Assembly (NCBI GenBank): GCA_017472965.1
Contig: JAFUNR010000023.1
Coordinates: 45,530-109,529, forward strand
DNA: 64,000 nucleotides
Direction: 5' to 3'
From: Oscillospiraceae bacterium
GTDB lineage: Bacteria; Bacillota; Clostridia; Oscillospirales; Ruminococcaceae
The notes under the pieces were generated by a model that was given only the letters and a program-made list of their open reading frames with translations, ran no database searches and was not told where the DNA came from. The position numbers and the translations under genes were made by a program. Below, piece after piece: positions 4,224 through 31,001 of this stretch. Numbering within the stretch: the first letter of the stretch is position 1; each line of letters starts with the position of its first letter.

Positions 4224-4267
4224 ACGCCGCTGGCCCCTTTTAATAAAAGGAGAGAAGGAGAAAGAAA

Positions 4268-5740: not shown

Positions 5741-5750
5741 GGAGACCGTC

Positions 5751-6449: not shown

Positions 6450-6469
6450 ATAAAACAGAGGTGCGAAAC

Positions 6470-7102: not shown

Positions 7103-7158
7103 GCGCCGGAAGCACGAAGCGTGTGTGCTGATTTTTCAAGGGAAAGGGGGCGGCGGTT

Positions 7159-7740
7159 TTGGCATTGATCATCGGTCTTGTGCCGATTTTACTGGTGCTG
7201 GGCATCAGCGGTGCAGTGGTGTATCTGCTGGTCGCACGGGAGGCAAGGCGTAAGGAACTCGTCATAGAACTGCCGATCCCGACCCATCTGAAAGATCATT
7301 TCGTTCCGCTGGGGGATAAAAACACCGGCAGACAGGTCAGCGGCGCCATCCGCTGCAGCTGCGGCTGCGGGGATCTTGCCGTATGGTCGAGCAATGAGCG
7401 GCGGCTGGTGATCCCGGTGTGCGGGCAGTGCGAAAAGATCTTTCTGCTGTTTGATGCCGGCAGGCACGGCTGGAACGGCTTTGTCTGCGGCGAGGATCCG
7501 CTTGTGCGCAGTGAACCGGTGGAGGAATTCTGCTGTCCGAAATGCGGGCAGAGCAGCTTTGGCATCGGTGCGGTGATCACATCACAGGGCAAAGAGGATT
7601 TCTGCAGACAGGCGCTCACCGGTGAGGATGATCTGACACCGGAGGATTGGGTGAATGCCTTTGATTATATCGGTATCTCACTGCGGTGCAGGAACTGCGG
7701 CTGGACGGACAGGCGCTGGAGCCGGCAGGAGACGCTGTAG
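7159..7740 (+). CDS. Membrane-anchored zinc-ribbon protein, unknown function
   Basis: The protein has 193 aa with a TTG start at 7159 behind GGAAAGGGGG. An N-terminal hydrophobic segment (residues about 2-26) is followed by a soluble domain with Cys pairs CSCGCG, CGQCEK, CCPKCG and CRNCG, which fit two zinc ribbons. I do not recognise a family. It lies 56 bp after the DUF4867-like gene and 75 bp before the glycosidase-like gene on the same strand, so it may be part of the same transcript, but nothing in it points to sugar metabolism. Confidence 0.7.
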   Translation: MALIIGLVPILLVLGISGAVVYLLVAREARRKELVIELPIPTHLKDHFVPLGDKNTGRQVSGAIRCSCGCGDLAVWSSNERRLVIPVCGQCEKIFLLFDAGRHGWNGFVCGEDPLVRSEPVEEFCCPKCGQSSFGIGAVITSQGKEDFCRQALTGEDDLTPEDWVNAFDYIGISLRCRNCGWTDRRWSRQETL

Positions 7741-7815
7741 TACCGCAGGATATCCGGATCGGATGACAGATATGGGCTGCAAAACGGCAGCCGATCAGGA
7801 AAAGGAGTGCATACA

Positions 7816-15044: not shown

Positions 15045-15067
15045 ATTTGCGTGAATTCTGTGCAACT

Positions 15068-15120
15068 TTGCCAAAAAGTTTTCCCACTTTTGACAAAAGG
15101 GAGAAACTGAAAAACCGGCA
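15068..15120 (+). promoter_or_regulatory. Conserved upstream regulatory box of GH-1
   Basis: TTGCCAAAAAG (15068-15078) and GGGAGAAACTGAAAAA (15099-15114) are shared with the region before GH-2. The second box starts 54 bp before the -10, as in GH-2 and GH-3. CCGGCA (15115-15120) and TGCCGG (15141-15146) form an inverted repeat around the -35. Confidence 0.65.
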
Positions 15121-15129
15121 CGGAAAGCA

Positions 15130-15158
15130 TGGACTTTTTTTGCCGGCTGTGATATAGT
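15130..15158 (+). promoter_or_regulatory. Promoter of GH-1
   Basis: TGGACT (15130-15135), spacer 17, TATAGT (15153-15158) with a TGA extended -10 element directly before it. Confidence 0.75.
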
Positions 15159-15221
15159 ACGGATGAAAACCAATGATATCAGTTGGTTGAATTACGGAAA
15201 GGGAAAAAGGAGACGACATTT

Positions 15222-18188
15222 ATGGATGTCATCAAAAATGAAGGCGTATTCCGCCTGTATGACAAACACTCCACCGTGATCCTGACGGACGAGCGCCAGC
15301 TGGACCGCATCATCGAAGGTCCCGACACGCCGCTTTTTGTGGATGAGGATCTGGGCTTTTCTGCCGAGCGCCAGAAGCTGAACAAGAACGATACCGAGAC
15401 GCTTCGTTCCAAGTGCGAGGAGGCTGCTGCCCGCGGCTGTACCCGTATGGAGGTCTCTTATGACTTCTTCTTCGGCGGCAGCTCCCGCTGCAACTACCCC
15501 AGCGATGAGACCACCATCAAGGCCTTCAAGGTCATCCATGATACCGCAAAGGAATACGGTATGGCCTTCGGCGCTTCCATCCTGAACCCGCTGGATACCG
15601 GCGGCGGCTGGATCAAGCAGAGTGACGAGACCGGCTTTACCTATCAGTATCTGGAGACCGAGATCAAGCCGGACGGCAGCTACTGCGCCAATATGAGCTG
15701 CCAGCGCCAGTGGAACAACAACAAGGGCCCCATCCATCCCATCCCCTACAAGGTGCTGGCTTTTGCCTTTAATGAGGAGCGTGTGGGCGATACCCCGTAT
15801 TTCTATGTGGATGAGAATGCCATCACGGATATCTCCGAAACCGCTTCCTACGCCATCGAGGAGGAGAAGACCTCCATTTCCCGCGATGGCTTCGGCACCT
15901 GCCCCATGACCATCAGCGGCAAGTGGGATGCCCCCACTGCCAACCGCGTGCTGTGCGTCATGGTCTACCGCACCCCCGAGCTGGATTATTTTGCCCCCAG
16001 CGCACTGGAGTTCACCAAAAAGACCATGGATGAACACAACGCCGCCGGCATCAGCTACGAGGGCTTCTATTCCGACGAGATGCACATCCAGTTCGACTGG
16101 GATCTGGAGCGCCATTTCGGTGAGACCGAGATCAACACCCGTTACCTGACTCCCGCTTTCATGAAGGTGTATGCGGAGAAGTACGGCGAGAAGTATCTGG
16201 ATTTCCCCAAATACCTGATCTACATGGCCTACCACCAGCATGACTTCCTGCCCGGCGCCGAGGGCAAGGAAAACGCTCAGCATGTCTTTGGCAAGACCCC
16301 CGAAGCCATCAACGAGACATGGCTGTTCCGCAACCGCTACTTTGAGCTGCTGCAGCGCACCGTGGTGGATCTGTCCAAGAATGCCAAGGCGTATGCCGAG
16401 GGTCTGTGGGGCGCTCCCATCATGACCCGTGCCCACGCCACCTGGCAGGAAAGCCCCACCTGCGACCATTATTACCATCAGCCCAACGCCATCGGCGGCT
16501 TTGATGTGCAGGATCAGCTGGGCGAGGAATTTGCCGATGTGAAGGTGGATTCCCCCATCGAGCGCCGCGTGGCCATGGAGGCCGCCAAGGTGAAGAAAGC
16601 CAAGGAGCTGGGCATCACCCGCTACGATTACACCCCGTGGTATGTGTGGAGCTCCTCCATCCGCGAGAACATCGCCGGCGGCTACGACTATTTCAAGTGG
16701 GCCGAGTTCCTGTCCGGCGCCGGCACCGACCATGCCGAGGGCGGCTATCTGGATCGCAACTACCATTCGCAGGCACTGGCTGCCAGCTTTGGCGAGGTCA
16801 ATGATTTCGGTCAGGCCTACTGCGCCTGCTGGGGCCATCCCCGCAAGATCAGCCAGCGCTTCCAGAATGTCACCGCCGCTTACGGCAACGCCGCCGGTAT
16901 CGAGCGTTACGGCTTCGTCAACGGTGTTGACAACCGCGAGACCGACGTTCTGGCACTGTATCCCATCAAGCTGAACAACGCCGAGGAGCGTTTCGGCAGC
17001 TGGACCGTGCTGTACGGCTACTGCAACTATATCACCGAGGCCAAGCTGCTGGATTACGCCACCGTCACCGAGGATGGCTGTCTGCTGGTGAACGGCAAAA
17101 AGTACCGCTGCCTGGTCGCTCTGTTCGAGCCGTTCCTGGATGAAAAGACCTTCGCTCTGATCGAGAAGTTCCTGGCCGCCGGCGGCAAGGTGCTGTGGAT
17201 GGGTATTCCCGCCCTGTACGACAACACCGGCGCTGAGGCTGCAGCCCGCTTCAACAGCATTTTCGGTCTGGAAAGCATCGTTCCCGCCTGCGCCGGCGAA
17301 AAGCACAAGGGCGAGAGCGTCAGCTTCTGCGGCAGCTTTGATAACGTGAAGGATATGTACATCCCCACCGATTTCATCGTGGATTTCGTCTATCCCTGCG
17401 TTCCCGCTGCAGGCTCTGAGGTCGTGGCCATGCTGGGCGGCAAGCCCGTCGCCGTCAGCAAGAAGTATGCAAACGGCGGTCAGGCCGTGTTTGCCGGCTT
17501 CCGTGTGCGCGATGATCAGTCCCAGTCGCTGGATGTGGATGTGGATACTCTGTATACCGTGCTGTGCGGCATGGATGCCTACCGTCCCGGTTCGCTGGAG
17601 GTTGCCAGCCGCGCCACCGGCGCCGAGTATGTGATGAACACCTTCCCCAACGGCTCCATTGCCGTTGCACCTCACTTCCGTGAGATCTATGAGAGCTGGG
17701 AGGGCAAGTTCTTCCGTGAGCCCGATTATGACGATGCCATTCTGGAATCCCGCGGCATCGGCGAGGCTTACATCGATCTGGATCAGGATATTGCCGGCCG
17801 TCACATTCAGTACACCGGCAAGAACTTCCTTGCCTACGATCTCAAGCCCTGCGGCTGCGTACGCGGCTTCTGGGGCGAGGATACCGACGGCATCACGGTG
17901 GACGGCGTCAAGTCTGTCTTTGCCGACCGCAAGGCAAACTTCCAGTTCGCCCCCGTGCCCGAAAAGTATCTGGCCGACGGCCTGAAGAATGTGGTCATGG
18001 CCACCTGCTGGACCGAGGGCACCACTCTGACCGTGCCCGCTGCGGGCAAGGGTGCGCCGAAGGTACTGGCCTGCGCCGAGCGTCTGTTCAAGGCGGATAT
18101 CCCCGTGGAGCATACCTATGCCGATGGCAAGGTGACCTTCACCGTCACCCCCGAGCTGACCGGCAAGCATATCATGATCATTTTCTGA
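15222..18188 (+). CDS. GH-1: putative glycoside hydrolase of a roughly 1000-aa paralogous family (subtype A)
   Basis: The protein has 988 aa from ATG 15222, which follows AAAAAGGAG; an in-frame start at 15183 is less likely. It has no signal peptide. Residues about 70-540 look like a TIM-barrel part with EVSYDFFFGG (77-86), VYRTPELDYF (248-257), FYSDEMHIQFDW (282-293) and GAGTDHAEG (499-507). Residues about 570-830 (DVLALYPIKLNN, ALIEKFLAAGGKVLWM) resemble the Rossmann-like trimerisation domain of GH42/GH106-type enzymes. A beta-rich C-terminus follows. Asp285/Glu286 in the invariant SDEMH are the best catalytic candidates. Substrate unknown. The family call is structural inference; what is certain is homology to the three genes downstream. 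Confidence 0.6.
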   Translation: MDVIKNEGVFRLYDKHSTVILTDERQLDRIIEGPDTPLFVDEDLGFSAERQKLNKNDTETLRSKCEEAAARGCTRMEVSYDFFFGGSSRCNYPSDETTIKAFKVIHDTAKEYGMAFGASILNPLDTGGGWIKQSDETGFTYQYLETEIKPDGSYCANMSCQRQWNNNKGPIHPIPYKVLAFAFNEERVGDTPYFYVDENAITDISETASYAIEEEKTSISRDGFGTCPMTISGKWDAPTANRVLCVMVYRTPELDYFAPSALEFTKKTMDEHNAAGISYEGFYSDEMHIQFDWDLERHFGETEINTRYLTPAFMKVYAEKYGEKYLDFPKYLIYMAYHQHDFLPGAEGKENAQHVFGKTPEAINETWLFRNRYFELLQRTVVDLSKNAKAYAEGLWGAPIMTRAHATWQESPTCDHYYHQPNAIGGFDVQDQLGEEFADVKVDSPIERRVAMEAAKVKKAKELGITRYDYTPWYVWSSSIRENIAGGYDYFKWAEFLSGAGTDHAEGGYLDRNYHSQALAASFGEVNDFGQAYCACWGHPRKISQRFQNVTAAYGNAAGIERYGFVNGVDNRETDVLALYPIKLNNAEERFGSWTVLYGYCNYITEAKLLDYATVTEDGCLLVNGKKYRCLVALFEPFLDEKTFALIEKFLAAGGKVLWMGIPALYDNTGAEAAARFNSIFGLESIVPACAGEKHKGESVSFCGSFDNVKDMYIPTDFIVDFVYPCVPAAGSEVVAMLGGKPVAVSKKYANGGQAVFAGFRVRDDQSQSLDVDVDTLYTVLCGMDAYRPGSLEVASRATGAEYVMNTFPNGSIAVAPHFREIYESWEGKFFREPDYDDAILESRGIGEAYIDLDQDIAGRHIQYTGKNFLAYDLKPCGCVRGFWGEDTDGITVDGVKSVFADRKANFQFAPVPEKYLADGLKNVVMATCWTEGTTLTVPAAGKGAPKVLACAERLFKADIPVEHTYADGKVTFTVTPELTGKHIMIIF

Positions 18189-18199
18189 CCGGCTGCCGC

Positions 18200-18266
18200 A
18201 AGCACCGTGCTGAAGCATCGTGCTGAAGCACCGTGCTGAAGCATTGTGCTGAAGCACCGTATAAAG
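18200..18266 (+). repeat. Imperfect 13-bp tandem repeat after GH-1
   Basis: AAGCAYYGTGCTG is repeated from 18200 with period 13: four full units and a partial fifth. A shorter version lies after GH-2 at 21564-21605. Confidence 0.85.
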
Positions 18267-18274
18267 TTTTCCCG

Positions 18275-18317
18275 CAGGAGGCGGCGCACGCTGTGCGCTG
18301 CCTCCTGTTTTGCGTTT
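18275..18317 (+). terminator. Terminator of GH-1
   Basis: A 15-bp stem, 18275-18289 with 18293-18307 (CAGGAGGCGGCGCAC and its partner, one G-U), followed by TTTTGCGTTTT. A nearly identical hairpin ends GH-2. Confidence 0.88.
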
Positions 18318-18372
18318 TGCTCCGCGTCTGAGGGCGTGCTGCAGATCCGTTGTCTGATGCACACAGGCGGTT

Positions 18373-18427
18373 TTGCCAAAAAGCTTTGCCGGTTTTGGTG
18401 AAAAAGGGAGAATCTGAAAAAAGCCGG
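18373..18427 (+). promoter_or_regulatory. Conserved upstream regulatory box of GH-2
   Basis: TTGCCAAAAAG (18373-18383) and GGGAGAATCTGAAAAAA (18406-18422) followed by GCCGG. The second box starts 54 bp before the -10, as in GH-1. Confidence 0.65.
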
Positions 18428-18436
18428 AGGAATGCG

Positions 18437-18465
18437 TTGCTTTTTTCAGACGGCTGTGCTATATA
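18437..18465 (+). promoter_or_regulatory. Promoter of GH-2
   Basis: TTGCTT (18437-18442), spacer 17, TATATA (18460-18465) with a TGC extended -10 element. Confidence 0.75.
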
Positions 18466-18521
18466 GAAGCTGAAAATATGCTGTGTCATCCGGGTATGGT
18501 ACGGCGAAAGGAGAGGGAGCT

Positions 18522-21500
18522 ATGGAGGTAATCAAAAAAGTCGGTCCGCTGGAGCTGCGGGAGAGTTTCGTACGCATCAGGCTGACGGATGATCGTCAGC
18601 TGGATCGCGTCCTTGCCGGCCCCGAGACCCCGCTGTTTGACGATCTGGAAGAGAACTACGAGTCCAGAAACCTGTACGAGAACAAAAATGAATCCCTTCT
18701 GGACCGTGTCAGGGAAGGGGAAAAAAGCAAAAGCAAAGCGGGAAGAGTGTCCTTTTCCTATGACTTTTTCTACGGCGGCACTACGCGTCACAACTATCCC
18801 AGCGACGACATCACCATCAAGGTGTTCAAAGTGGTGCACGATACCGCCAAAGAGCACGGCATGGGCTTTGAAGCATCCATTCTTTCCCCGCTGGATACCG
18901 GCGGCGGCTGGGCCAGGATGAGTGACGAGACAGGCTTCACCATGCAGTATCTGGAGACCGATATCAAACCCGACGGCAGCTACGCTGCGGATATGGTGGG
19001 CCAGCGCCAGTGGTGCAATAACAAGGGGCCTGTCCGCCTGACGCCGTATCAGGTGCTGGTATATGCTTTCAATGAAGAGCGCGTGGGCGATACCCCGTAT
19101 TTCTACGTGGACGAAAATGCCATCGTGAATATCTCCTCCACCGCCTCCTATGTGCTGGAAACCGATAAGGAGACCATCACCGGTTGGTCGGGTTACGGCA
19201 GCTGCCCGCTGCACATCAGCGGCAAATGGGAAAATCCCACCGCAAACCGCGCGCTGTGCATCATGGTGTACCGCACGCCGGAGCTGGATTATTTTGCCGA
19301 CAGCGCCCACGCCTTTATGAAAAAAATGCTGGATGACCACAACGCCGCCGGCATCAGCTACCGCGGCTTCTACTCCGATGAGATGCACATCCAGTTTGAC
19401 TGGAACAGATGCGAGCACTTCGGCGAGACCGAGATCAACACCCGCTACGTCACCCCTGCGCTGGCAAAGGTATTTGCGGAGAAATACGGAGAGAAGTACC
19501 GTGATTTTGCCAAGTACCTCATCTACATGGCCTACCATCAGCACGACTTCCTGCCCGGCGAGGAGGGCAGGGAGAACGCCCAGCACATCTTTGGCAAAAC
19601 CCCGCAGGACGCATACAATACCTGGCTGTTTCGCAACCGCTACTTCGAGCTGCTGCAGCGCACGGTGGTGGACCTTTCCAAGGAGGCCAAGGCCTATGGG
19701 GAAAAGCTGTGGGGCGGCCCCATCCTGACCAAGGCTCACGCCACGTGGGAGGAAAGCCCCACCTGTGACCGCATCTCCACGGTGGATTTCTACAAACAGG
19801 TGAGAGAAGAGTACCCCGATGTGGACGATAATTCACCGGTTGACAGGCGCATCGCCAGAGATCTGGCCATCGCCGCCAAAAAGAAAGAGCTGGGGGTATC
19901 CCACTACGATTATACCCCGCTGTTTGACTGGTCGTCCTCCATCTGCGAGAATATGGCTGCCTGCTACGACTACTTCAAGTGGAACGAATTCCTCACCGGC
20001 AGCGGTACCGATCACGCCGAGGACCCCATTCTGGACCGCACCTATTACAGTCAGGCGCTGGCGGCCAGCTTTGCCGAGCTCAACGATTTTGAAAGCGCCT
20101 ACAGTTGTTGCTGGGGTATGCCCGGTAAGGTGGCGGATATGTTTGGCCGCGTCACCATCGCTTACGGCGTCAGTCAGTCCGGCCGCATGCCGCATCGCGA
20201 TGAGACCACCTTCGTCAACGGTCTGGGCACCCGCCGCACCGATGTGCTGGCGCTGTATCCCATCAAGCTGAACAACGTGGAAGAGCGCTTCGGCAGCTGG
20301 ATGGTGCAGTACGGCTACTGCAACTACATCACCGAGGAAAAGCTGCTGGAGAATGCCGTTATCACCGAAAACGGCACCCTGTGCATCAAGGGGCAGGAGC
20401 ACCGCTGTCTGGTGGTCATGTTCGAGCCGTTCCTTGAGGAAAAGACCTTTGTTCTGATCGAGAAGTTCCTGGCTGCCGGCGGCAAGGTGCTGTGGATGAG
20501 CATTCCCGCGCTGACTGACGCCACCGGTGCAGACACTACCGCCCGGTTCAACGCCATGTTCGGCATGGAAAAGGTGGCAGGCGGCGGCTTCGGCGAAAAA
20601 CTGCAGGGCGCAAAGGTCAGATTTACCGGTCGATTTGCCGGCATCAGGGAGATGACCGTCCCCACAAGCTTTATCGTGGATATGGTTTACCCCTGCGTCC
20701 CCGCTGCGGACGGCGAAGCCTTTGCTGCCGTGGACGGAAAGAGCGTCGGCGTCTGCAAGCCTTATGCAAACGGCGGTCTGGCGGTGTATGCCGGCTTCCG
20801 CGTGCGCGATGACCAGTCCGCCAGTCTGGGCGAGGATATCGATACCCTGTACCGTATGCTGATGGCCATGGAGGCCTACCGGCCCGATTCGCTGGAGGCC
20901 CGCGGCCGCGAGCCCAGCTCCCGCTATGTATACAATACCTTTGCCGATGGCTCCGTCGCCGTTGCACCGCATTACCGCGGTATTGAGGAGGGCTGGGCCG
21001 GCATGCTCTACCGTGACCGGGCGTACGACGAAGCTTTGCTGACTGTCCGCACCGATATCCCCGAGCCCGTGGTGGAACTCGACGAGAACATCGACGGCCA
21101 CAGCATCCGCTTTGCCGGTGACGAGATTCTGGCCTACCGTCTGGACGATAACGGCGCGCCCGTGGCCTTCTTTGGTGTGGGCACCGACGGCATCGAGGTG
21201 GACGGCAGGAAGTATACCTTCGCTGACCGCAAGGCTAAGTTCGAGTTTGCCCCCGTGCCCGAGCGCTACCGCGCCGACGGCCTGAAAAATGTGGTGTTCG
21301 TCACCTGCTGGACCGAGGGCGCTGTGCTCACCATCCCTGCCGCAGGCGAGGGTGCGCCGCGGGTGCTGGCCTGTACATGGGATATGTTTGACGCCTCCAC
21401 CCCCGTGGAGCACAAGTGGGACGGCCGTAATGTCACCTTTACCGTTACGCCGGAGCTGGTTGCCGATCGTGTTGCCAACTTAACCGTTATGCCGGGGTCG

Positions 21501-21530
21501 GTTGCCCCTCGCATTGCCATTGTATTCTGA
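18522..21530 (+). CDS. GH-2: putative glycoside hydrolase paralog (subtype B)
   Basis: The protein has 1002 aa from ATG 18522 (GAAAGGAGAGGGAG upstream). It shares the whole layout of GH-1, including YDFFYGG, FYSDEMHIQFDW, FGETEINTRYVTP, ESPTCD, GSGTDHAE and the AAGGKVLWM domain. It belongs with GH-3 to subtype B: the N-terminal SLLDRVREGEKSKSK linker replaces the RSKCEEAAARGC stretch of subtype A, and the segment after ESPTCD lacks the GGFDV block. In the central SDEMH region the usual DWDLERHFG reads DWNRCEHFG. The C-terminus has about 14 extra residues (VANLTVMPGSVAP) before the final IAIVF, absent from the other copies. Substrate unknown. Confidence 0.6.
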   Translation: MEVIKKVGPLELRESFVRIRLTDDRQLDRVLAGPETPLFDDLEENYESRNLYENKNESLLDRVREGEKSKSKAGRVSFSYDFFYGGTTRHNYPSDDITIKVFKVVHDTAKEHGMGFEASILSPLDTGGGWARMSDETGFTMQYLETDIKPDGSYAADMVGQRQWCNNKGPVRLTPYQVLVYAFNEERVGDTPYFYVDENAIVNISSTASYVLETDKETITGWSGYGSCPLHISGKWENPTANRALCIMVYRTPELDYFADSAHAFMKKMLDDHNAAGISYRGFYSDEMHIQFDWNRCEHFGETEINTRYVTPALAKVFAEKYGEKYRDFAKYLIYMAYHQHDFLPGEEGRENAQHIFGKTPQDAYNTWLFRNRYFELLQRTVVDLSKEAKAYGEKLWGGPILTKAHATWEESPTCDRISTVDFYKQVREEYPDVDDNSPVDRRIARDLAIAAKKKELGVSHYDYTPLFDWSSSICENMAACYDYFKWNEFLTGSGTDHAEDPILDRTYYSQALAASFAELNDFESAYSCCWGMPGKVADMFGRVTIAYGVSQSGRMPHRDETTFVNGLGTRRTDVLALYPIKLNNVEERFGSWMVQYGYCNYITEEKLLENAVITENGTLCIKGQEHRCLVVMFEPFLEEKTFVLIEKFLAAGGKVLWMSIPALTDATGADTTARFNAMFGMEKVAGGGFGEKLQGAKVRFTGRFAGIREMTVPTSFIVDMVYPCVPAADGEAFAAVDGKSVGVCKPYANGGLAVYAGFRVRDDQSASLGEDIDTLYRMLMAMEAYRPDSLEARGREPSSRYVYNTFADGSVAVAPHYRGIEEGWAGMLYRDRAYDEALLTVRTDIPEPVVELDENIDGHSIRFAGDEILAYRLDDNGAPVAFFGVGTDGIEVDGRKYTFADRKAKFEFAPVPERYRADGLKNVVFVTCWTEGAVLTIPAAGEGAPRVLACTWDMFDASTPVEHKWDGRNVTFTVTPELVADRVANLTVMPGSVAPRIAIVF

Positions 21531-21563
21531 ATGAAACAGACCCGCTGCCGTGCAGACGGGCTG

Positions 21564-21605
21564 AAGCACCGTGCTGAAGCATTGTGTTAAAGCACCGCAT
21601 AAAGC
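21564..21605 (+). repeat. Degenerate copy of the 13-bp repeat after GH-2
   Basis: AAGCACCGTGCTG, AAGCATTGTGTTA and a partial third unit in tandem. It is the same family as the array at 18200-18266, followed by the same type of terminator. Confidence 0.8.
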
Positions 21606-21611
21606 TTTCCC

Positions 21612-21650
21612 GCAGGAGGCGGCGCACGCTGTGTGCTGCCTCCTGCTTTT
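21612..21650 (+). terminator. Terminator of GH-2
   Basis: GCAGGAGGCGGCGCAC (21612-21627) pairs with 21631-21646, followed by TTTTTG. It is near-identical to the GH-1 terminator. Confidence 0.88.
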
Positions 21651-21706
21651 TGCGCCGTTGCCGCAGCTGTGGAGTTTTGTGCTATGTTTTGCGTTGATTT
21701 GTGCTA

Positions 21707-21735
21707 TTGCGGTTTCAGGTGCGGTACTGTATAAT
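21707..21735 (+). promoter_or_regulatory. Promoter of the lyase-like gene
   Basis: TTGCGG (21707-21712), spacer 17, consensus TATAAT (21730-21735). It does not carry the -54 box of the GH genes. It also rules out a coding start at 21571. Confidence 0.85.
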
Positions 21736-21789
21736 GAGGACAGGCGGAAAGCCGTTCAACGAAAAGGAAGAGGAAAAGGAGAAAGTCTC

Positions 21790-23610
21790 ATGAGCATTGC
21801 TGAACAGAATGCCCGTTTTGCGCAGGGCTGGGAGTATAACCGCGGCAAGCCGGTGGTGCATGTGCCGGTGGAACCGCCCATTTTTGCAGGGCACCCCTGT
21901 GTTGCACGCGGGTTTTCCTACCATCTGTGCACCTTTGTGCTGCGCGTGTTCCATAACCGCGAGACAGAGTTTTATGCCGATGCCAACGCGGCAATGATCG
22001 AAAACTGTCAGTATTACATCGATCACACCGATGTGCGTGATGACCGCGATTCCTTTTACTGGAATATTGCCGAGCTGTGCCGTGCCATGCTGCGCTACGG
22101 CAGCCGCGGCTTTGAGGAGCCGGGTCTTGTCAGTCCCGAGGCGGAGCGGATCTTTCTGGAGATGGCGCTGGGCTATGTGCGGGATAACTCTTCCTTTGAA
22201 AATGCAAAAAGCGATGTGGAATCCACATGGCGCATCTATGAAAGCGAAAACCATCATGTGCAGAAGAACTCTGCCATCTGGCAGCTGTGCCTGGTTCTTG
22301 AGCGCTGGGGTCTGGGAGAGGAGATGCTCACCGGCGGTACGGTGAAGCAGCATTTCGATGCATGGACCGCATTTTTCACCACATGGATGCGCACCCGCGC
22401 CACACGCTCCATGTTTGTGGAGGTGCAGAGCAAGGTCTACGGCGTGCATACCATGAAAAATATCTACGCCATCTACGATTTTGCCCCCACCGAAGAGCTG
22501 CGCACGCTGACAAAGAATTTCATCGATCTGTTCTGGGCGCTGTGGGCTCAGGAACAGCTGGACGGCATTCAGGGCGGCGGCCAGAGCCGGATCTATCCGA
22601 AAACCGGTGTCGAGACGAAGGGTGAGACTGCCGAATGGGCCTGGTACTACTGCGGTGTGGGCGAGTTCAGCGCCCCGCGTGAGATGGTGCATGTGCTGCT
22701 GGATTGCGGCTACCGTATGCCGGAATACATCGAGGATATGATCCACAATGCGGAAAAGCGCGGCACTTATACGGTGGAAAGCCGTCCCTACGGCAAATCC
22801 TCGCCGCTGGATAACTACCCCGATTACCGCATCGATACCGACTGGGGCCATATCTACCGCTACACCTACTGCACACCGCGTTATATCCTCGGCACGCTGA
22901 TGTGTCCCCAGCTCACCCATGAGGACTGGATCATGATCAGCAGCCAGAACCGCTGGCAGGGTGTCACCTTCACCGAGCCCGATGCGGTGGTTTCGGTGCT
23001 GCCCCGCCCGAACAGCATCCACAATATCCGCACGACCGTTGCAGAGATCGCCTTCAATGCCTTCTGGAGCATGCAGTGCGAGAGCACGCTGGTCAGCCAG
23101 AAGGTGGGGTACTACGATGGCACCATGCGCGTATGGCTTTCCGATGCGGGCGGCATTCTGGGATCTCTGACCGAAAAGGCCGGCTGGAACTTTGTGCGCT
23201 GCGGCGATGTGTATGTGGCCATCCGCATCTGTAAGGGTGGCTATACGCTGGGCGTGGAGCCCTCGCTGCCCAACGGCAAGGGCCGCTGGATGATCTGCGA
23301 TACCCCGGATACCCCGGTGATCCTTGAGGTGGGCACCGAAAAGGAATACGGCAGCTTTGAGGGCTTTATGGATGCGGTCGCGCCCTGTGCCCCTGTGTGG
23401 GAGGGCGATACCATGAAGTATCACTCCCTGTCCGGCCACGATTTCGTCATGCTCACCGCCGAGGACGGTAATTCCACCGTAGACGGCGAGTACTATGTCA
23501 AAAAGCCGGATTTCAGCTTCCGCAGCCCCTTTGTCAACGGCAAATGGGATGGCGACAAAGTGGAGATCACCTATGACGGCGAGACCCGGGTGCTGGATTT
23601 CACCCTGTAA
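21790..23610 (+). CDS. Polysaccharide-lyase-like protein (alpha/alpha toroid plus beta-sandwich)
   Basis: The protein has 606 aa from ATG 21790 (AAAAGGAG upstream, promoter just before). The first 370 residues are helical, with WNIAELCRAMLRYGSRG and WRIYESENHHVQKNSAIW; the SENHH motif (152-156) in an alpha/alpha toroid is reminiscent of heparinase/alginate-lyase-like enzymes. The rest is beta-rich (about 400-606; RWQGVTFTEPDAVVSVLPRP, GYYDGTMRVWLSD), like the sandwich domains that follow such toroids. No signal peptide. It lies between GH-2 and GH-3, so it probably acts on the same glycan. Family and reaction are not recognised; a hydrolase with the same fold is equally possible. Confidence 0.5.
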   Translation: MSIAEQNARFAQGWEYNRGKPVVHVPVEPPIFAGHPCVARGFSYHLCTFVLRVFHNRETEFYADANAAMIENCQYYIDHTDVRDDRDSFYWNIAELCRAMLRYGSRGFEEPGLVSPEAERIFLEMALGYVRDNSSFENAKSDVESTWRIYESENHHVQKNSAIWQLCLVLERWGLGEEMLTGGTVKQHFDAWTAFFTTWMRTRATRSMFVEVQSKVYGVHTMKNIYAIYDFAPTEELRTLTKNFIDLFWALWAQEQLDGIQGGGQSRIYPKTGVETKGETAEWAWYYCGVGEFSAPREMVHVLLDCGYRMPEYIEDMIHNAEKRGTYTVESRPYGKSSPLDNYPDYRIDTDWGHIYRYTYCTPRYILGTLMCPQLTHEDWIMISSQNRWQGVTFTEPDAVVSVLPRPNSIHNIRTTVAEIAFNAFWSMQCESTLVSQKVGYYDGTMRVWLSDAGGILGSLTEKAGWNFVRCGDVYVAIRICKGGYTLGVEPSLPNGKGRWMICDTPDTPVILEVGTEKEYGSFEGFMDAVAPCAPVWEGDTMKYHSLSGHDFVMLTAEDGNSTVDGEYYVKKPDFSFRSPFVNGKWDGDKVEITYDGETRVLDFTL

Positions 23611-23704
23611 ACGAACGGGATCATGCAAACAGGCAGAGCAGCTGTGCTTTACGGCTGCTCTGCTTTTTTTGAATATTGCACAAAATCCCCATGATTTTTT
23701 GGGC

Positions 23705-23732
23705 AAAAGGAAGAACGTAAAAAAACACCGGA
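23705..23732 (+). promoter_or_regulatory. Conserved upstream regulatory box of GH-3
   Basis: GGAAGAACGTAAAAAAAC then CCGG. The box starts 54 bp before the -10, aligning with GH-1 and GH-2 but with more mismatches. Confidence 0.55.
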
Positions 23733-23739
23733 AAAAGCA

Positions 23740-23768
23740 TTGCCCTTTGCCTTTTTCTGTGATATAAA
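23740..23768 (+). promoter_or_regulatory. Promoter of GH-3
   Basis: TTGCCC (23740-23745), spacer 17, TATAAA (23763-23768) with a TGA extended -10 element. Confidence 0.75.
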
Positions 23769-23826
23769 GAGTTTGAAAAAGGCGTTTGGCAAGCCACGCC
23801 GCGTCCCTATAGAAGGAGGAACTTTT

Positions 23827-26784
23827 ATGGAAGTTGTCAAAAAAGTCGGCCCGCTTCAGCTGCGTGTGCGCGGCGGCGGCATCACCCTGACAGATGAGCG
23901 CCAGCTGGAGCGCATCATCGCCGGCCCCGAGACCCCGCTGTTCGGTGAGCTGGATGAAAACCGCGAATCCAAATCTCTGTATAAGGATAAAAGCGAGTCG
24001 CTGATGACCCGCATCAAGGCGGCGGAAGAGCGCAACGGCTCCATGTTCTCCATCGCGTACGACTATTTCTTCGGCGGCACCAGCCGCAGCAACTACCCCA
24101 GCGACGATATCACCGTCAAGGCCTTCAAGGTGGTGCATGACACCGCCAAGGAGCACGGCATGAAGTTTGAGGCCTCCATCCTCTCTCCGCTGGATACCGG
24201 CGGCGGCTGGGCCAAGATGAGCGATGAGACCGGCTTTTCCATGCAGTATCTGGAAACCGACATCAAGCCCGACGGCAGCTATGCCGCGGATCTGGTGGGT
24301 CAGATCCAGTGGGTCAACAACAAGGGTCCCATCCGTCTGACTCCGCACCATGTGCTGGTGTACGCCTTCAACGAGGAGCGTGTGGAGGGCACCCCGTATT
24401 TCTATGTGGATGAAAACGCCATCGTGGATATCTCCTCCACTGCAAGCTATGTGATGGAGACCGACAAGGCGGAGGGCACCGGCTACATCCGCTGCCCGCT
24501 GCACATCTCCGGCAAGTGGGAGAACCCCACCGCCAACCGTGCGCTGTGCATCATGGTGTACCGCACCCCCGAGCTGGATTATTTTGCACCCAGCGCCATG
24601 GAATTCATGAAAAAGCTGCTGGATGACCACAACGCTGCCGGCATCAGCTACGGCGCCTTCTATTCCGACGAGATGCACATCCAGTTCGACTGGGATCTGG
24701 AGCGCCATTTCGGCGAGACCGAGATCAACACCCGCTATGTCACCCCCGCGCTGGGTAAGGTCTATGCGGAAAAATACGGCGAGAAGTACCGCGATTTTGC
24801 CAAGTATCTGATCTACATGGCATACCATCAGCACGATTTCCTGCCCGGCGAGGAAGGTGTGGAGAACGCCCAGCATGTCTTTGGCAAAACGCCGCAGGAT
24901 ATCGCCAATACATGGCTGTTCCGCAACCGCTATTTTGAGCTGCTGCAGCGCACTGTGGTGGATCTCTCCAATAAATCCAAGGAATATGCCGAAAGCCTGT
25001 GGGGCGGCCCCATCCTGACCCACGCCCACGCCACATGGCAGGAAAGCCCCACCTGCGACCATTTCTCCACGGTGGATCTGCGCGCCGCTCTGGGCGAGGA
25101 ATACGCCGGCATCGATGAAAAGACCTCCTCTCTGGAGGACCGCGCACGGCTGCAGGAGGCTCTGGCAGCCAAGGAGGACGAGCTGGGCGTATCCCACTAC
25201 GATTACACCCCGCTGTATGCGTGGAGCTCCTCCATCCGCGAGAATATCTCCGCCTGCTACGACTACTTCAAGTGGAATGAGTTCCTCACCGGCTCCGGCA
25301 CCGACCACGCCGAGTGCGGCTTCACCAGTGACCGCAACTACTATGCGCAGTGTCTGGGCGCCAGCTTCGCCGATCTGAACGATTACGAGTCCGCCTATGC
25401 CGCCTGCTGGGGCATGCCCGGCAAGGTGATGGATATGTACGGCCGTATCAATATCGTTTACGGTGTCGGTCAGGCGGGCCCCGTGCCGCATGCCAACGAG
25501 GCCACCTTCGTCAACGGTCTGGGCACCCGCCGCACCGATGTGCTGGCCATGTATCCCATCAAGCTGAACAACGTGGAAGAGCGCTTCGGCAGCTGGATGG
25601 TGCAGTACGGCTACTGCAACTACATCACCGAGGAAAAGCTGCTGGAGAATGCCGTTGTCACCGAAAAGGGTACGCTGCGTGTCAAGGGACAGGAATACCG
25701 CTGTCTGGTGGTCATGTTCGAGCCGTTCCTCGATGACAGGACCTTCGACCTGCTGGAGCAGTTCCTTTCTGCCGGCGGCAAGGTGGTTTGGATGAGCATC
25801 CCCGCACTGACCAATGCAGCGGGCGAGGATGTGACCGAACACTTCAGGAAGCTGTTCGGCCTGAAGAGCATCGCCGCCGCCAGCGAGGGCAAAAAGTGTC
25901 AGGGCGCCGAGATCGCCTTCACCGGCCGTCTGTCCGGCATCCATGCCATGAAGGTGCCCACCGATTTCGTGGTGGATATGGTGTATCCCTGTCTGGCCGA
26001 TGCCGGTGCGGAGCCCGTCGCCACCCTGAATGACCACTGTGTGGGTGTCTGCAAGCCTTATGCAAACGGCGGTCTGGCAGTGTATGCCGGCTTCCGTGTG
26101 CGTGATGACCAGTCCGGCTCCACCGGTAAGGATGTTGACAGCCTGTACCGTGTGCTGATGCGCATCGGCGCATACCGTCCCGGTTCGCTGGAGGCCCGCG
26201 GCCGTGAGCCCGGCAGCAAGTATGTGTACAACACTTTTGCCGATGGCTCCATCGCCGTTGCTCCGCATATGCGCGGCATCCGCGAAGCATGGGAGGGCCC
26301 CTTCTTCCGCGATAAGGAGTATGACGCCGTGGCGCTGTCCCGCCGTCCGGATATCGTTGACCCCGTGGTGGAGCTCAACGAGGAGATCGCCGGCCGCAAC
26401 ATCCGCTTTGCCGGTGACGATGTCCTGGCCTACCGTCTGGATGATAACGGCGCACCCGTGGCCTTCTTCGGCGTGGGTACCGACGGCATCGAGGTGGACG
26501 GCAAAAAGTACACCTTTGCCGACCGCAAGGCCAAGTTCGAGTTCACCCCCGTGCCCGAGCGCTACCGTGCCGACGGCCTGAAGAATGTGGTGTTCGTCAC
26601 CTGCTGGACGGAGGGCGCCGTGCTGACGATCCCCGCCGCCGGCGAGGGCGCCCCGCAGGTGCTGGGCTGCGAATGGGATCTGTTTGGGGCCAATATCCCT
26701 GTGGAGCACAAGTGGGATGGCCGTAATGTCACCTTCACCGTCACTCCCGAGCTGGCGGCAAAGCACATCGCCATCGTGTTCTGA
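23827..26784 (+). CDS. GH-3: putative glycoside hydrolase paralog (subtype B)
   Basis: The protein has 985 aa from ATG 23827 with AGAAGGAGG upstream; the in-frame start at 23740 lies inside the promoter and is rejected. It keeps all invariant family blocks: YDYFFGG, VYRTPELDYF, FYSDEMHIQFDWDLERHFG, YLIYMAYHQHDFLPG, ESPTCD, GSGTDHAE and LSAGGKVVWM. It is closest to GH-2: both carry CSTVD/FSTVD-type sequence after ESPTCD, a PHANEATFVNGLGTRRTD-type block, and nearly identical C-terminal thirds (FFGVGTDGIEVDG, WTEGAVLTIPAAGEGAP). Cytoplasmic, substrate unknown. Confidence 0.6.
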   Translation: MEVVKKVGPLQLRVRGGGITLTDERQLERIIAGPETPLFGELDENRESKSLYKDKSESLMTRIKAAEERNGSMFSIAYDYFFGGTSRSNYPSDDITVKAFKVVHDTAKEHGMKFEASILSPLDTGGGWAKMSDETGFSMQYLETDIKPDGSYAADLVGQIQWVNNKGPIRLTPHHVLVYAFNEERVEGTPYFYVDENAIVDISSTASYVMETDKAEGTGYIRCPLHISGKWENPTANRALCIMVYRTPELDYFAPSAMEFMKKLLDDHNAAGISYGAFYSDEMHIQFDWDLERHFGETEINTRYVTPALGKVYAEKYGEKYRDFAKYLIYMAYHQHDFLPGEEGVENAQHVFGKTPQDIANTWLFRNRYFELLQRTVVDLSNKSKEYAESLWGGPILTHAHATWQESPTCDHFSTVDLRAALGEEYAGIDEKTSSLEDRARLQEALAAKEDELGVSHYDYTPLYAWSSSIRENISACYDYFKWNEFLTGSGTDHAECGFTSDRNYYAQCLGASFADLNDYESAYAACWGMPGKVMDMYGRINIVYGVGQAGPVPHANEATFVNGLGTRRTDVLAMYPIKLNNVEERFGSWMVQYGYCNYITEEKLLENAVVTEKGTLRVKGQEYRCLVVMFEPFLDDRTFDLLEQFLSAGGKVVWMSIPALTNAAGEDVTEHFRKLFGLKSIAAASEGKKCQGAEIAFTGRLSGIHAMKVPTDFVVDMVYPCLADAGAEPVATLNDHCVGVCKPYANGGLAVYAGFRVRDDQSGSTGKDVDSLYRVLMRIGAYRPGSLEARGREPGSKYVYNTFADGSIAVAPHMRGIREAWEGPFFRDKEYDAVALSRRPDIVDPVVELNEEIAGRNIRFAGDDVLAYRLDDNGAPVAFFGVGTDGIEVDGKKYTFADRKAKFEFTPVPERYRADGLKNVVFVTCWTEGAVLTIPAAGEGAPQVLGCEWDLFGANIPVEHKWDGRNVTFTVTPELAAKHIAIVF

Positions 26785-26799
26785 GTGTTTTCGCATCAC

Positions 26800-26857
26800 C
26801 CGCGGGGGCTGCCGGTTTCCGGCGGCTCCCGCTTGTGTCATACCTGCTTTTATGACA
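26800..26857 (+). promoter_or_regulatory. Two hairpins in the GH-3/GH-4 intergenic region
   Basis: A GC-rich stem, GGGGCTGCCGG with CCGGCGGCTCCC (about 26805-26830), has no T-run. A 7-bp inverted repeat, TGTCATA (26836-26842) with TATGACA (26851-26857), lies just before the ribosome binding site of GH-4. They may act in mRNA processing, attenuation or as an operator. No clear promoter or -54 box is seen, so GH-4 may be read through from GH-3. Confidence 0.5.
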
Positions 26858-26873
26858 GCGGAAAGGAATCGGT

Positions 26874-29840
26874 ATGGAGATCATCAAAAAAGAGGGCGTC
26901 ATGCATCTGCCGCCTCACCACAGCACCATCATCCTGACCAGCGAAAAACAGCTGGAACGCATCATCGAAGGCCCGGATACCCCGCTTTTTGAGGATGAAG
27001 AGCTGGGGCTTTCCGCAGAAAGACAAAAGCTCAACCGCGAAAAGAAGGAAACCGTGCGCACCAAGTGTGCCGCTGCCGCGGCAAGAGGCTGCGACCGGGT
27101 GGAAGTATCCTACGATTTCTTCTTCGGCGGCAGTATGCGTACTTTTTATCCCAGCGATGAGATCACCATCAAGGCGTTCAAGGTCATTCACGACACGGCA
27201 AAGGAATACGGCATGGGCTTCGGCGCTTCGGTGCTCAATCCGCTGGATATCGGCGGCGGCTGGGCCAAGGTCAGCGATGAAACCGGCTTTTCTTATCAAT
27301 ATCTGGAGACGGAGATCAGGCCCGATGGCAGCTATGCCGTGGATATGGTGGGGCAGCGGCAGTGGTACAATAATAAAGGCCCTATCCGTCTGACACCGTA
27401 TAAGGCGCTGGTCTATGCTTTCAACGAGGAGCGCATAGACGATACCCCGTATTTCTATGTGGATGAAAACGCTATCGTGGATATCTCCTCAACAGCCTCT
27501 TATGTGATGGAAACCGACAGGGAGACCGGCGACGGCTACATCCGCTGCCCGCTGCATATCTTTGGCAAATGGGAGAACCCCACTGCCAACCGGGCGCTGT
27601 GCATCATGGTGTACCGTACCCCCGAGCTGGATTATTTTGCCCCCAGCGCATCGGCCTTCCTGAAGGAGACACTGGATCGGCACAATGCAGCCGGCATCAC
27701 CTACACCGGTTTTTATTCCGATGAAATGCACATCCAGTTCGACTGGGATCTGGAGCGTCATTTCGGTGAGACCGAAATCAATACCCGTTATCTGACGCCC
27801 GGTCTGGCAAAGGTGTATGCGGAGAAGTATGGCGAAAAGTACCGGGACTTTGCGAAATATCTCATCTATATGGCCTATCATCAGCATGACTTTCTGCCCG
27901 GTGAGGAAGGCGGGGAGAATGCGCAGCATGTGTTCGGCAAAACGCCGGAGGCCATCAACGGGACATGGCTGTTCCGCAACCGGTATTTTGAGCTGCTGCA
28001 GCGCACGGTGGTGGATCTGTGCTGCGAGGCCAAGGCCTATGCCGAGAGCCTGTGGGGCGGCCCCATTATGACCCGTGCCCATGCCACATGGCAGGAAAGC
28101 CCCACCTGCGATCATTACTACCGAAGTGCAAACAATATCGGCGGCTTTGATGTCAGCGACCGGCTGGGTGATGCGTATGCGGATGTGACGCTGCAGTCCC
28201 CGCCGAAGCGCCGGGCCGAAATGGAGCTCGCCAAGGCGGCAAAGGCGCAGGAGCTGGGGATCAGCCGTTACGACTATACGCCGTGGTATGACTGGGGCGC
28301 TTCGATCCGGGAAAATATTTCCGCCTGCTATGATTACTTTAAGTGGAACGAATACTTTACCGGTGCCGGCACCGATCACGCCGAGGGCGGCAACCTTGAC
28401 CGGAATTATTATGCCCAGTGCCTTGCGGCCAGCTTCCATGAGCTGAATCAATTTGATTTTGCCCGCTGTTCCGCATGGGGCATGCCTGCGCCGGTGCTGA
28501 AGCTGTTTTACAACATAGCGGCGGCTTTTGGCAACTGGCATACCCTGCCGATGAGCTTTGTCAACGACCGCGGCACCCGCCGCACCGATGTGCTGGCGCT
28601 GTATCCCATCAAGCTGAACAATGCGGAGGAACGCTTTGGCAGCTGGATGGTCCAGTACGGCTACTGCAACTATATCACGGAGGAAAAGCTGCTGGAGAAT
28701 GCCTCCGTTACCGCAGACGGCTGCCTGCTGGTGCGGGGACAGAAGTTCCGCTGTCTGACCGTGCTGTTCGAGCCGTTCCTCCACGAAAAGACCTTTGCCC
28801 TGATCGAGGAATTCCTTGCTGCCGGCGGCCGTGTGCTGTGGATGAGCATTCCCGCGCTGTATGACTCGATGGGTGCAGATACCGCCGGACGCTTCAAAAA
28901 GATCTTTGGCATCCGCAGCATCGTCCCCGCCAGTGCAGGCGAAAAGCATGGCGGCGCCGGTGTGCAGTTTACCGGCAGCCTTGCCGGTGTGGCGGATATG
29001 GAGATCCCCACTGACTTCCTTGTGGACTTTGTCTACCCCTGTACCCCGGCAGACGGTGCGGAGACAGTTGCTGTACTGAACGGCAAAACGGTGGCTGTGT
29101 GCAAAAAATACGCGGGCGGCGGTCAGGCGGTGTATGCCGGCTTCCGTGTGCGGGACGATCAGTCCGGTTCACTGGGGAAAGAGGTCGATACCCTGTTCCG
29201 GGTGCTGTGCGCTATGGGAGCGTATCGCCCCGGTTCGCTGGAGGTGCGCAGCCGTACACCGGGCGCGAAATATATGATGAATGTATTTGCCAACGGGGCG
29301 GTTTCGGTCGCACCGCACTTCCGTCAGGTCTATGAGAGCTGGGAGGGCAAATACTTCCGCGAGAAGGATTTTGATGATGCCGTTTTGGCGCAGCGCCCCG
29401 ATATTCCGGACGGCAGTATTTTGCTGGAAAACGAGCAGATCAACGGGCACAGCATCGGCTTTGCCGGTACCGGTCATGTGATGTGGCGGCTGGATGATGC
29501 CGGGGTGCCTGTGGCGCTGCGCTGCGAGGGTGCGGCGGGCATCACGGTGGACGGCGTTCCGTATATCTATGCCGATCGCCCCGCCTCCTTTGAGTTTGCT
29601 CCCATTGCGCCCGCATTCCTTGCCGATGGCGTGAAAGCGGCGGTGGGAGTCCTTGCACCTGCAGCCGGTGTCACATTGAGTATACCTGTTCCCGGTGAAG
29701 GAGAGCCGCAGGTACTGGCCTGTCGGGATGTCTGGTTTGACGCATCGGTTCCGGTGCAGCACACCTGTGCCGATGGCCGCATGAGCTTTACCGTCACCCC
29801 GGAGCTTGCCGGAAAAAATATTCTGATCGTATTTGTGTAA
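26874..29840 (+). CDS. GH-4: putative glycoside hydrolase paralog (subtype A)
   Basis: The protein has 988 aa, the same length as GH-1, from ATG 26874 (GGAAAGGA upstream). Like GH-1 it has FEDEELGLSAERQKLN-type and RTKCAAAAARGCDRVEV-type sequence near the N-terminus, and DHYYRSANNIGGFDVSDRLG after ESPTC, so it is subtype A. Invariant blocks FYSDEMHIQFDWDLERHFG, AYHQHDFLPG, GAGTDHAEG and LAAGGRVLWM are all present. Its C-terminal third is the most divergent (ALRCEGAAGITVDGV). The UroD-family gene follows 66 bp downstream with no terminator between, so the two are probably co-transcribed. Confidence 0.6.
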   Translation: MEIIKKEGVMHLPPHHSTIILTSEKQLERIIEGPDTPLFEDEELGLSAERQKLNREKKETVRTKCAAAAARGCDRVEVSYDFFFGGSMRTFYPSDEITIKAFKVIHDTAKEYGMGFGASVLNPLDIGGGWAKVSDETGFSYQYLETEIRPDGSYAVDMVGQRQWYNNKGPIRLTPYKALVYAFNEERIDDTPYFYVDENAIVDISSTASYVMETDRETGDGYIRCPLHIFGKWENPTANRALCIMVYRTPELDYFAPSASAFLKETLDRHNAAGITYTGFYSDEMHIQFDWDLERHFGETEINTRYLTPGLAKVYAEKYGEKYRDFAKYLIYMAYHQHDFLPGEEGGENAQHVFGKTPEAINGTWLFRNRYFELLQRTVVDLCCEAKAYAESLWGGPIMTRAHATWQESPTCDHYYRSANNIGGFDVSDRLGDAYADVTLQSPPKRRAEMELAKAAKAQELGISRYDYTPWYDWGASIRENISACYDYFKWNEYFTGAGTDHAEGGNLDRNYYAQCLAASFHELNQFDFARCSAWGMPAPVLKLFYNIAAAFGNWHTLPMSFVNDRGTRRTDVLALYPIKLNNAEERFGSWMVQYGYCNYITEEKLLENASVTADGCLLVRGQKFRCLTVLFEPFLHEKTFALIEEFLAAGGRVLWMSIPALYDSMGADTAGRFKKIFGIRSIVPASAGEKHGGAGVQFTGSLAGVADMEIPTDFLVDFVYPCTPADGAETVAVLNGKTVAVCKKYAGGGQAVYAGFRVRDDQSGSLGKEVDTLFRVLCAMGAYRPGSLEVRSRTPGAKYMMNVFANGAVSVAPHFRQVYESWEGKYFREKDFDDAVLAQRPDIPDGSILLENEQINGHSIGFAGTGHVMWRLDDAGVPVALRCEGAAGITVDGVPYIYADRPASFEFAPIAPAFLADGVKAAVGVLAPAAGVTLSIPVPGEGEPQVLACRDVWFDASVPVQHTCADGRMSFTVTPELAGKNILIVFV

Positions 29841-29906
29841 ACATCGTCCAACGCTACGGTGTGTGAAAAAGCTGTGCTTGTCAATAACAAAAAAGGTGGT
29901 ATTCCT

Positions 29907-31001
29907 ATGAGTGAAGTGATCAAAAAAGCCCCCGAGACAATGACCTCCAAGCAGCGCGTACGCAATACCTTTGCCCGCGAGAAAACCGATCGCGTGCCCA
30001 TTGATGTCAGCTTTAATGAGGATATTTACCGTCGTACCATGCGGGCACTGGGCGCAAAGAACAATGAAGAGCTGCTGGAGGGCCTGGGCGTGGATTTCCG
30101 TGCGGCGGGTGCACCCTATACCGGCCCGCTGCTTTATCCCGAAAAGCCCGGCAGAAATGTGGATCCCGTTTACGGCTTCTACACCCGCTGGGTGGAGCAC
30201 GGCAGCGGCGGCTACCACGATTTCTGTGATTTCCCCCTGAAGGATGCGGACAGTGAGACCATCTTCAATTTTCCGGTGCCCTCTGCGGATGATTTCGATT
30301 ATGACAGCGCGGAAGCCTATATGCGCGCCCATGCGGATAAAGCTCTCTATGTGGGCAATGCCGGCATCGCGGATATCATCAACTCCATCGGCCGCGTGAT
30401 GAGCATGGAGGATACCCTTGTCAACCTGATGACCGAGGACGAGGCAACGCTGGATCTGGTGGATCGCAAGCTGGACATGGAGCTGGGACAGATGGAGCGG
30501 CTGCTTGCCCGCTGCGGTGATATCGTCGATTTTGTGTGGCTCGGCGAGGATCTGGGTACCCAGATCGCCCCGATGATCAGTCTGGATATGTACCGCCGTG
30601 TACTGCGTCCCCGCCACCAGCGGTTTGTGGATCTGGCCAAAAGCTACGGCAAGCCGGTGATGATGCACAACTGCGGCTCCTCCAGCTGGGTGTATCCCGA
30701 TTTTCTGGAGATGGGCATCACCGCTGTCGATACCCTGCAGCCGGAGGCTGCCAATATGTCTCCTGCATATCTGAAGCAGAATTTCGGCGACCGCATGGTA
30801 TTCCATGGCTGCATCTCCACCGCAGGCCCGCTTTCCTTCGGCACCCCCGAGCAGGTGCGGGAGGAGGTGCGCTCCACACTGGAGATCATGATGCCCGGCG
30901 GCGGTTATATGCTGGCGCCCACCCACGCCATTCAGGACAATACCCCCACCGAAAACCTGCTGGCCATGTATCAGGCTGCCCACGATTTCGGCAGATACTG
31001 A
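29907..31001 (+). CDS. UroD-superfamily corrinoid-type methyltransferase
   Basis: The protein has 364 aa from ATG 29907 (AAAAGGTGG upstream). The barrel of the uroporphyrinogen decarboxylase superfamily is seen in RVRNTFAREKTDRVPID, GEDLGTQ, and GGGYMLAPTHAIQDNTPTEN. HNC (254-256) plus Cys302 in HGCIST form the HxC...C zinc site that marks the MtaA/CmuA-like methyltransferases, not HemE. Such proteins move methyl groups between a corrinoid protein, a thiol and a methylated substrate. No corrinoid protein is nearby. Its place at the end of the GH cluster suggests that the glycan is O-methylated, or that the protein handles another methyl donor; this is speculation. Confidence 0.8.
   Translation: MSEVIKKAPETMTSKQRVRNTFAREKTDRVPIDVSFNEDIYRRTMRALGAKNNEELLEGLGVDFRAAGAPYTGPLLYPEKPGRNVDPVYGFYTRWVEHGSGGYHDFCDFPLKDADSETIFNFPVPSADDFDYDSAEAYMRAHADKALYVGNAGIADIINSIGRVMSMEDTLVNLMTEDEATLDLVDRKLDMELGQMERLLARCGDIVDFVWLGEDLGTQIAPMISLDMYRRVLRPRHQRFVDLAKSYGKPVMMHNCGSSSWVYPDFLEMGITAVDTLQPEAANMSPAYLKQNFGDRMVFHGCISTAGPLSFGTPEQVREEVRSTLEIMMPGGGYMLAPTHAIQDNTPTENLLAMYQAAHDFGRY

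Follow-up and report, generated by a model that had tools for sequence, protein, structure and literature searches.

Tandem copies of a predicted, apparently unnamed glycoside-hydrolase family with a GH106-like barrel in an Oscillospiraceae genome

We analyzed a 64,000-nucleotide stretch of contig JAFUNR010000023.1 from an Oscillospiraceae bacterium (assembly GCA_017472965.1), referred to below as the window, with a focus on an array of six genes that contains four copies of one very large gene. The array runs A1, B1, a 'lyase-like' gene (P0003), B2 and A2, with a gene of the UroD superfamily (P0006) last (Table 1). This order, read by an initial annotation from the letters alone, is borne out by six open frames that all lie on the + strand; five of them have an AGGA or GGAG upstream and the UroD gene has AGGTGG. 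The four big proteins, which we call the SDEMH family, are full-length paralogs: relative to A1 over the full length, A2 is 68%, B1 63% and B2 62% identical, far above chance. Judged by the structural model described below, they appear to belong to a real, well-conserved and apparently unnamed glycoside hydrolase (GH) family, where naming was judged on Pfam and NCBIfam and a CAZy number may already exist.

Table 1. Genes of the array and predicted leaders and terminator-like hairpins, in window coordinates
Feature	Position	Strand	Remarks
A1 leader	15050..15221	+	promoter-like site at 15130-15158; homologous to the B1 and B2 leaders
A1 (P0001)	15222..18188	+	988 amino acids; SDEMH-family member, open frame
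Terminator-like hairpin 3' of A1	18274..18308	+	16 pairs, T-rich tail
B1 leader	18330..18521	+	homologous to the A1 and B2 leaders
B1 (P0002)	18522..21530	+	1002 amino acids; SDEMH-family member, B clade
Terminator-like hairpin 3' of B1	21612..21646	+	16 pairs; 33 of 35 bases identical to the hairpin after A1
P0003, 'lyase-like'	21790..23610	+	606 amino acids; without family; E-N-H invariant in 8 of 8 aligned rows
Terminator-like hairpin 3' of P0003	23631..23665	+	16 pairs
B2 leader	23640..23826	+	homologous to the A1 and B1 leaders; start overlaps the hairpin after P0003
B2 (P0004)	23827..26784	+	985 amino acids; SDEMH-family member, B clade
A2 (P0005)	26874..29840	+	988 amino acids; SDEMH-family member; about 90 bases 3' of B2
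P0006, UroD gene	29907..31001	+	364 amino acids; PF01208, 63.4 bits; about 66 bases 3' of A2

None of the four big proteins has a meaningful match in Pfam or NCBIfam (best E 0.063 and 0.015), and a phmmer comparison of A1 with the PDB returned noise only (E 0.19). The AlphaFold model of A1 is confident (pLDDT 91) and shows a barrel within residues ~12-570, a GATase-like domain at ~574-790 and a beta-rich C-terminal part. Structure searches with the whole model find a resemblance to GH42, GH164, GlmA-type and GH106 enzymes, and the top Foldseek match of the barrel modelled alone is a GH106 enzyme (6q2f). The leading fold matches are carbohydrate enzymes and not members of a non-carbohydrate family, and the earlier description of these proteins as an unnamed glycoside hydrolase holds at the level of the fold. 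Against a GH106-like barrel counts the fact that 6q2f is missing from the 50 VIA rows shown for the barrel-only model, an absence that excludes nothing.

Comparison with GH106 (RHA-P 6q2f, BT_0986 and the Ram106B group) reveals the overall fold of the solved enzyme together with clear differences. Specifically, PF17132 is matched by none of the four big proteins at E <= 1 (its cut-off is 29 bits), the SDEMH model carries a large beta-insertion at residues ~137-254, and no counterpart of the general base E593 of BT_0986 could be placed. As to the metal-site Asp, D458 of BT_0986, the D285/E286 pair aligns with a D-E of GH106 relatives at p 0.0019 with an HH probability of 14.5%. A profile match of the whole alignments (97.5%) was discarded as driven by the GATase-like domain; it is not independent evidence because that very domain was the means by which 8 of the 9 GH106-like rows in it were collected. 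Note that five other genomes (of 100) match 54-142 positions of the GATase-like domain, and that all eight of the GATase-only loci scanned (out of nine) match PF17132 at E <= 0.001, six of them over the cut-off.

Relatives were collected from genome_contigs by two patterns, YFYVDEN and FYSDEMH, a choice that favours members that keep those blocks; the 202 stretches obtained contain 59 relatives at 59 loci. Their record titles name Clostridia, Bacteroidota, Spirochaetota, Armatimonadota, Chloroflexi, Planctomycetota, Poribacteria and Deinococcales, and carriers with species names include Parapedobacter defluvii, Echinicola pacifica and Ulvibacterium marinum. In an alignment of 54 rows (50 proteins from 49 of the 59 loci plus the four window proteins, with query start <= 75 and end >= 840), many barrel positions with a carboxylate, His, Tyr or Trp are the same in every one of the 54 rows, across several phyla. 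Among 100 genomes, the source genome included, full-length members occur in the source genome and in one congener only, which has three copies and whose contig coordinates match loci L007/L009 of a metagenome-assembled genome labelled Faecalibacterium sp. UBA1762. Linkage of the copies is kept in part in the congener, where two of them are adjacent, with an aldo-keto reductase gene and then an ortholog of the UroD gene (70.8%) after them, and the third copy lies on another contig. The 16 pattern matches in viral_contigs include no relative. At four loci (L023, L036, L056 and L060) the family genes read as two frames, which represent either assembly errors or decayed genes.

Within the array, the blocks FYSDEMHIQFDW, FGETEINTRY and GTDHAE are exact in all four big proteins as had been noted initially, but AAGGKVLWM, listed with them as invariant, is exact in A1 and B1 only. 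The proposed A and B subtypes likewise stand in part. RGC and GGFDV are confined to A1 and A2 among the four paralogs, and B1 and B2 form a clade with the L008 protein from a goat colon (support 100/100); however, the placement of A1 and A2 is not resolved and no A clade is recovered. The initial idea that each subtype serves one linkage type is accordingly not supported. The congener's copies, three in number, group in a separate clade (support 100/99), so the two genomes' copy sets do not pair as A and B. In DNA, A1 is equally close to B1 (70.2%), B2 (71.1%) and A2 (70.5%). Comparison by 50-column blocks gives a patchy picture, in that A2 over columns 201-250 is 85% identical to B1 and 93% to B2 but 57% to A1, and A1 over columns 901-950 is 74% identical to B1 and 72% to B2 but 48% to A2. 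A simple reading of such mosaic copies would be gene conversion. A clear A/B difference falls at residues ~415-445, after a conserved E-S-P-T-C-D.

The absence of signal peptides noted initially agrees with what we see by eye in the Clostridia members, none of which has a visible one; 17 of 21 Bacteroidota members have a signal-peptide-like start by the same inspection and the other four are cut or have unclear starts. A survey of the gene neighbourhood finds glycan-type neighbours at other loci as well. These counts are rough, as genes were picked by longest frame and flank lengths differ at contig ends. A GH78-type BLAST cluster (Pfam-verified protein L053:6617-8368) is present at 13 of the 59 loci and a GH106 cluster (verified protein L045:4950-7943) at 9; together these rhamnosidase clusters occur at 18 of 59 loci in several phyla, as raw counts without a background rate. 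A third cluster occurs at 16 loci, in 8 of which it sits immediately 3' of the family gene, and its profile resembles GH99 (4acy, E 4e-7). It belongs to a second unnamed family, represented by L010:12831-14585 and 13 further proteins. Among the 84 of 132 same-strand neighbours that were scanned there are 9 matches to PF17389, 3 to PF17132, 4 sulfatases, 5 ABC-transporter membrane proteins and 6 xylose-isomerase-like barrels, and no other catalytic GH family appears among the best 25 of the 74 families matched.

We consider it fairly probable that the array consists of tandem copies of an unnamed GH family with a GH106-like barrel, whose members act as cytoplasmic exo-glycosidases on imported oligosaccharides, maybe ones that contain L-rhamnose. 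In this proposal an SDEMH protein would present a (beta/alpha)8 barrel most like that of GH106, then the GATase-like domain and then the beta-rich domains, and would use general acid/base catalysis to trim oligosaccharides after their import. D285/E286, both invariant, align with the T-D-E found in GH106 relatives and could serve as metal ligand and acid/base; candidates for the second catalytic residue are E410, D415, D503 and E506, and the copy differences at residues ~415-445 may tune specificity. L-rhamnose is suggested as a part of the natural substrate because many relatives sit near rhamnosidases. That a widespread and well-conserved family with a good model has no Pfam or NCBIfam name leaves our picture of the enzymes that degrade glycans incomplete. 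Should the family act next to rhamnose, it might contribute a step so far lacking in the breakdown of pectic or ulvan-type glycans, and it is testable since named strains carry SDEMH genes.

Several other readings of the same model were weighed. The enzymes that match nearly the whole model with the highest VIA scores are those of GH42 (5xb7) and GH164 (6t5o) and the GlmA-type exo-glucosaminidases (5gsm, 8oug), and the overall fold is also that of the solved GH42 enzyme, as would be expected of a retaining clan GH-A enzyme that cleaves a beta-linked sugar or an alpha-L-arabinopyranoside with its acid/base on strand 4 and its nucleophile on strand 7. We regard this as rather unlikely: PF02449 is matched by none of the four proteins at E <= 1, the profile comparison with GH42 gives p 0.067 over 18 columns, and the barrel alone is a poor match to GH42. 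A sequence match to the GlmA type (E 0.0059) lies in the GATase-like domain. GH112 enters through the second and third Foldseek matches of the barrel (2zut and 2zus), which would make the proteins cytoplasmic phosphorylases that use phosphate to split a disaccharide. This seems improbable given that there is no Pfam match and that the Bacteroidota relatives look exported, presumably a poor place for a phosphorylase. The proteins could finally have kept the fold and lost catalysis to become binding or regulatory proteins, in keeping with there being no activity on record; the barrel residues that are invariant across phyla fit catalysis better, and we think this very improbable.

The UroD gene brings in a further alternative, first raised by the initial annotation, in which the array is a demethylation system for O-methylated sugars with P0006 as its corrinoid methyltransferase. 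Membership of P0006 in the UroD superfamily is clear (PF01208 cut-off 23.9 bits), and the protein matches the methylcobalamin:coenzyme M methyltransferase subfamily model (E 6.3e-18) and the methyltransferase MtaA (4ay7, E 6.2e-5), sharing the HxC motif (HNC in P0006) of MtaA and CmuA. Its scores lie, however, far below the family cut-offs, at 64.9 against 244 bits, 55.1 against 235.4 for mtaA_cmuA and 50.5 against 400 for MtaA. The zinc site of MtaA and CmuA is His-Cys-Cys; a Cys of 4ay7 aligns with a His of P0006, and that His could still bind zinc. Passages in Kountz and Balskus (PMC10418091) place O-demethylases within the UroD superfamily and describe UroD-type gene clusters as holding a corrinoid protein and an activase. 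Neither is seen in the array itself. In the source genome PF02607 occurs in two proteins, namely a fusion with an AraC-type regulator and a stand-alone corrinoid protein; the latter adjoins a GH43 gene, a point in favor of demethylation. The congener retains the UroD ortholog and has no PF02607 match (PF02310 was not searched there), and an RACo match is found in neither genome, both being 85-88% complete. A homologue of P0006 occurs at only three of the 59 family loci (L007, L029 and L039). The suggestion of O-methylated sugars is thus not upheld, and we hold a demethylation system to be the most improbable of these readings. A bolder version of the favored GH reading, which strikes us as doubtful, is that SDEMH is a new GH family that bridges GH106 and the GH42/GH112 group and has an activity found in no known family, possibly towards a rare bond adjacent to rhamnose, and that the UroD gene acts in an undescribed sugar reaction that needs no corrinoid partner.

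PF01208 matches number 26 in the source genome (2.9 Mb) and 12 in the congener (2.3 Mb), where a match is a stretch and the genes may be fewer. Since picking by longest frame took antisense frames in the high-GC source genome, its UroD regions were redone with codon scoring. In the 20 other UroD regions (116 proteins) the commonest neighbours are AraC-type regulators (9), and GH genes are few, with GH43 in 2 and GH95 in 1 of the 116 proteins among the best 25 of 144 families; this scarcity also speaks against a demethylation system. The two Armatimonadota homologues of P0006 (L029:3183-4559 and L039:438-1586) lie near SDEMH genes on the opposite strand. The AraC fusion mentioned above (L124:7152-8711, contig C23) is a 520-amino-acid protein with AraC_binding, AraC-type HTH, B12-binding_2 and B12-binding domains that directly follows a UroD-family gene (6159-7124), and it is possibly a corrinoid- or methyl-sensing regulator. 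Upstream of it is a 999-amino-acid frame (2134-5130) with a match to the GATase-like domain (E 6.5e-4) that is probably GH106-like. The stand-alone PF02607 protein (L091:7423-8085, contig C5) has the GH43 gene on one side and, on the other, three more genes of arabinofuranosidase-like appearance as judged by eye; one of these was scanned and has no Pfam match. A literature search, judged without full texts, gave nothing considered relevant on an AraC-B12 fusion, a UroD-glycan cluster or a distant GH106 family.

The middle gene product, P0003, is matched neither in Pfam (at E <= 1) nor in NCBIfam, and has no sequence match in the PDB. Relatives are found in none of 60 other near relatives and in 6 of 390 other genomes of the class, and are 18-24% identical in the alignment. 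We take its invariant E-N-H to recall polysaccharide lyases, as a lead only.

The region upstream of the array (window 1449-10029) is an L-arabinose-type locus that codes for a SASA-type esterase, an FGGY kinase, an L-arabinose isomerase, a class II aldolase, a DUF4867 protein and, at 7807-10032, a protein with a PF17389 match below cut-off. The kinase, isomerase, aldolase and DUF4867 genes speak for L-arabinose in the source species.

The initial annotation treated the array as a single set, and we set aside a single operon on account of the predicted hairpins after A1, B1 and P0003. From these 16-pair stems, which fill the three long gaps, and the three homologous leaders, four transcription units (A1, B1, P0003 and B2-A2-UroD) appear likelier than one operon; B2, A2 and the UroD gene are closely spaced with no terminator-like site between them. 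Smith-Waterman scores of the leaders are 94 for A1-B1, 44 for A1-B2 and 62 for B1-B2, whereas 100 dinucleotide shuffles of each pair never score above 30, and the P0003 leader has no homology to those of A1 and B1 (its scores are equalled or exceeded in 16 and 74 of 100 shuffles). A leader stretch like these can be made out by eye ahead of the L008 gene and of the first L007 copy. The array thereby looks like a clear tandem duplication of leader-gene-terminator units. Several counts weigh against the four-unit reading: terminator-like sites number 20 versus 14.8 +/- 4.2 in shuffles, promoter-like sites 7 versus 7.6 +/- 2.7, and the promoter scan gives a site in the A1 leader but leaves those of B1 and B2 without one. 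No terminator-like + strand site is listed just 3' of the UroD gene. Foreign composition is not indicated, with an array GC of 58.2% versus 58.0% for the window. Finally, another contig of the source genome (C57, 724-5801) carries a second B2-A2-UroD end that is 99.5% identical over 5153 bp, which reflects either strain heterogeneity or a recent duplication.

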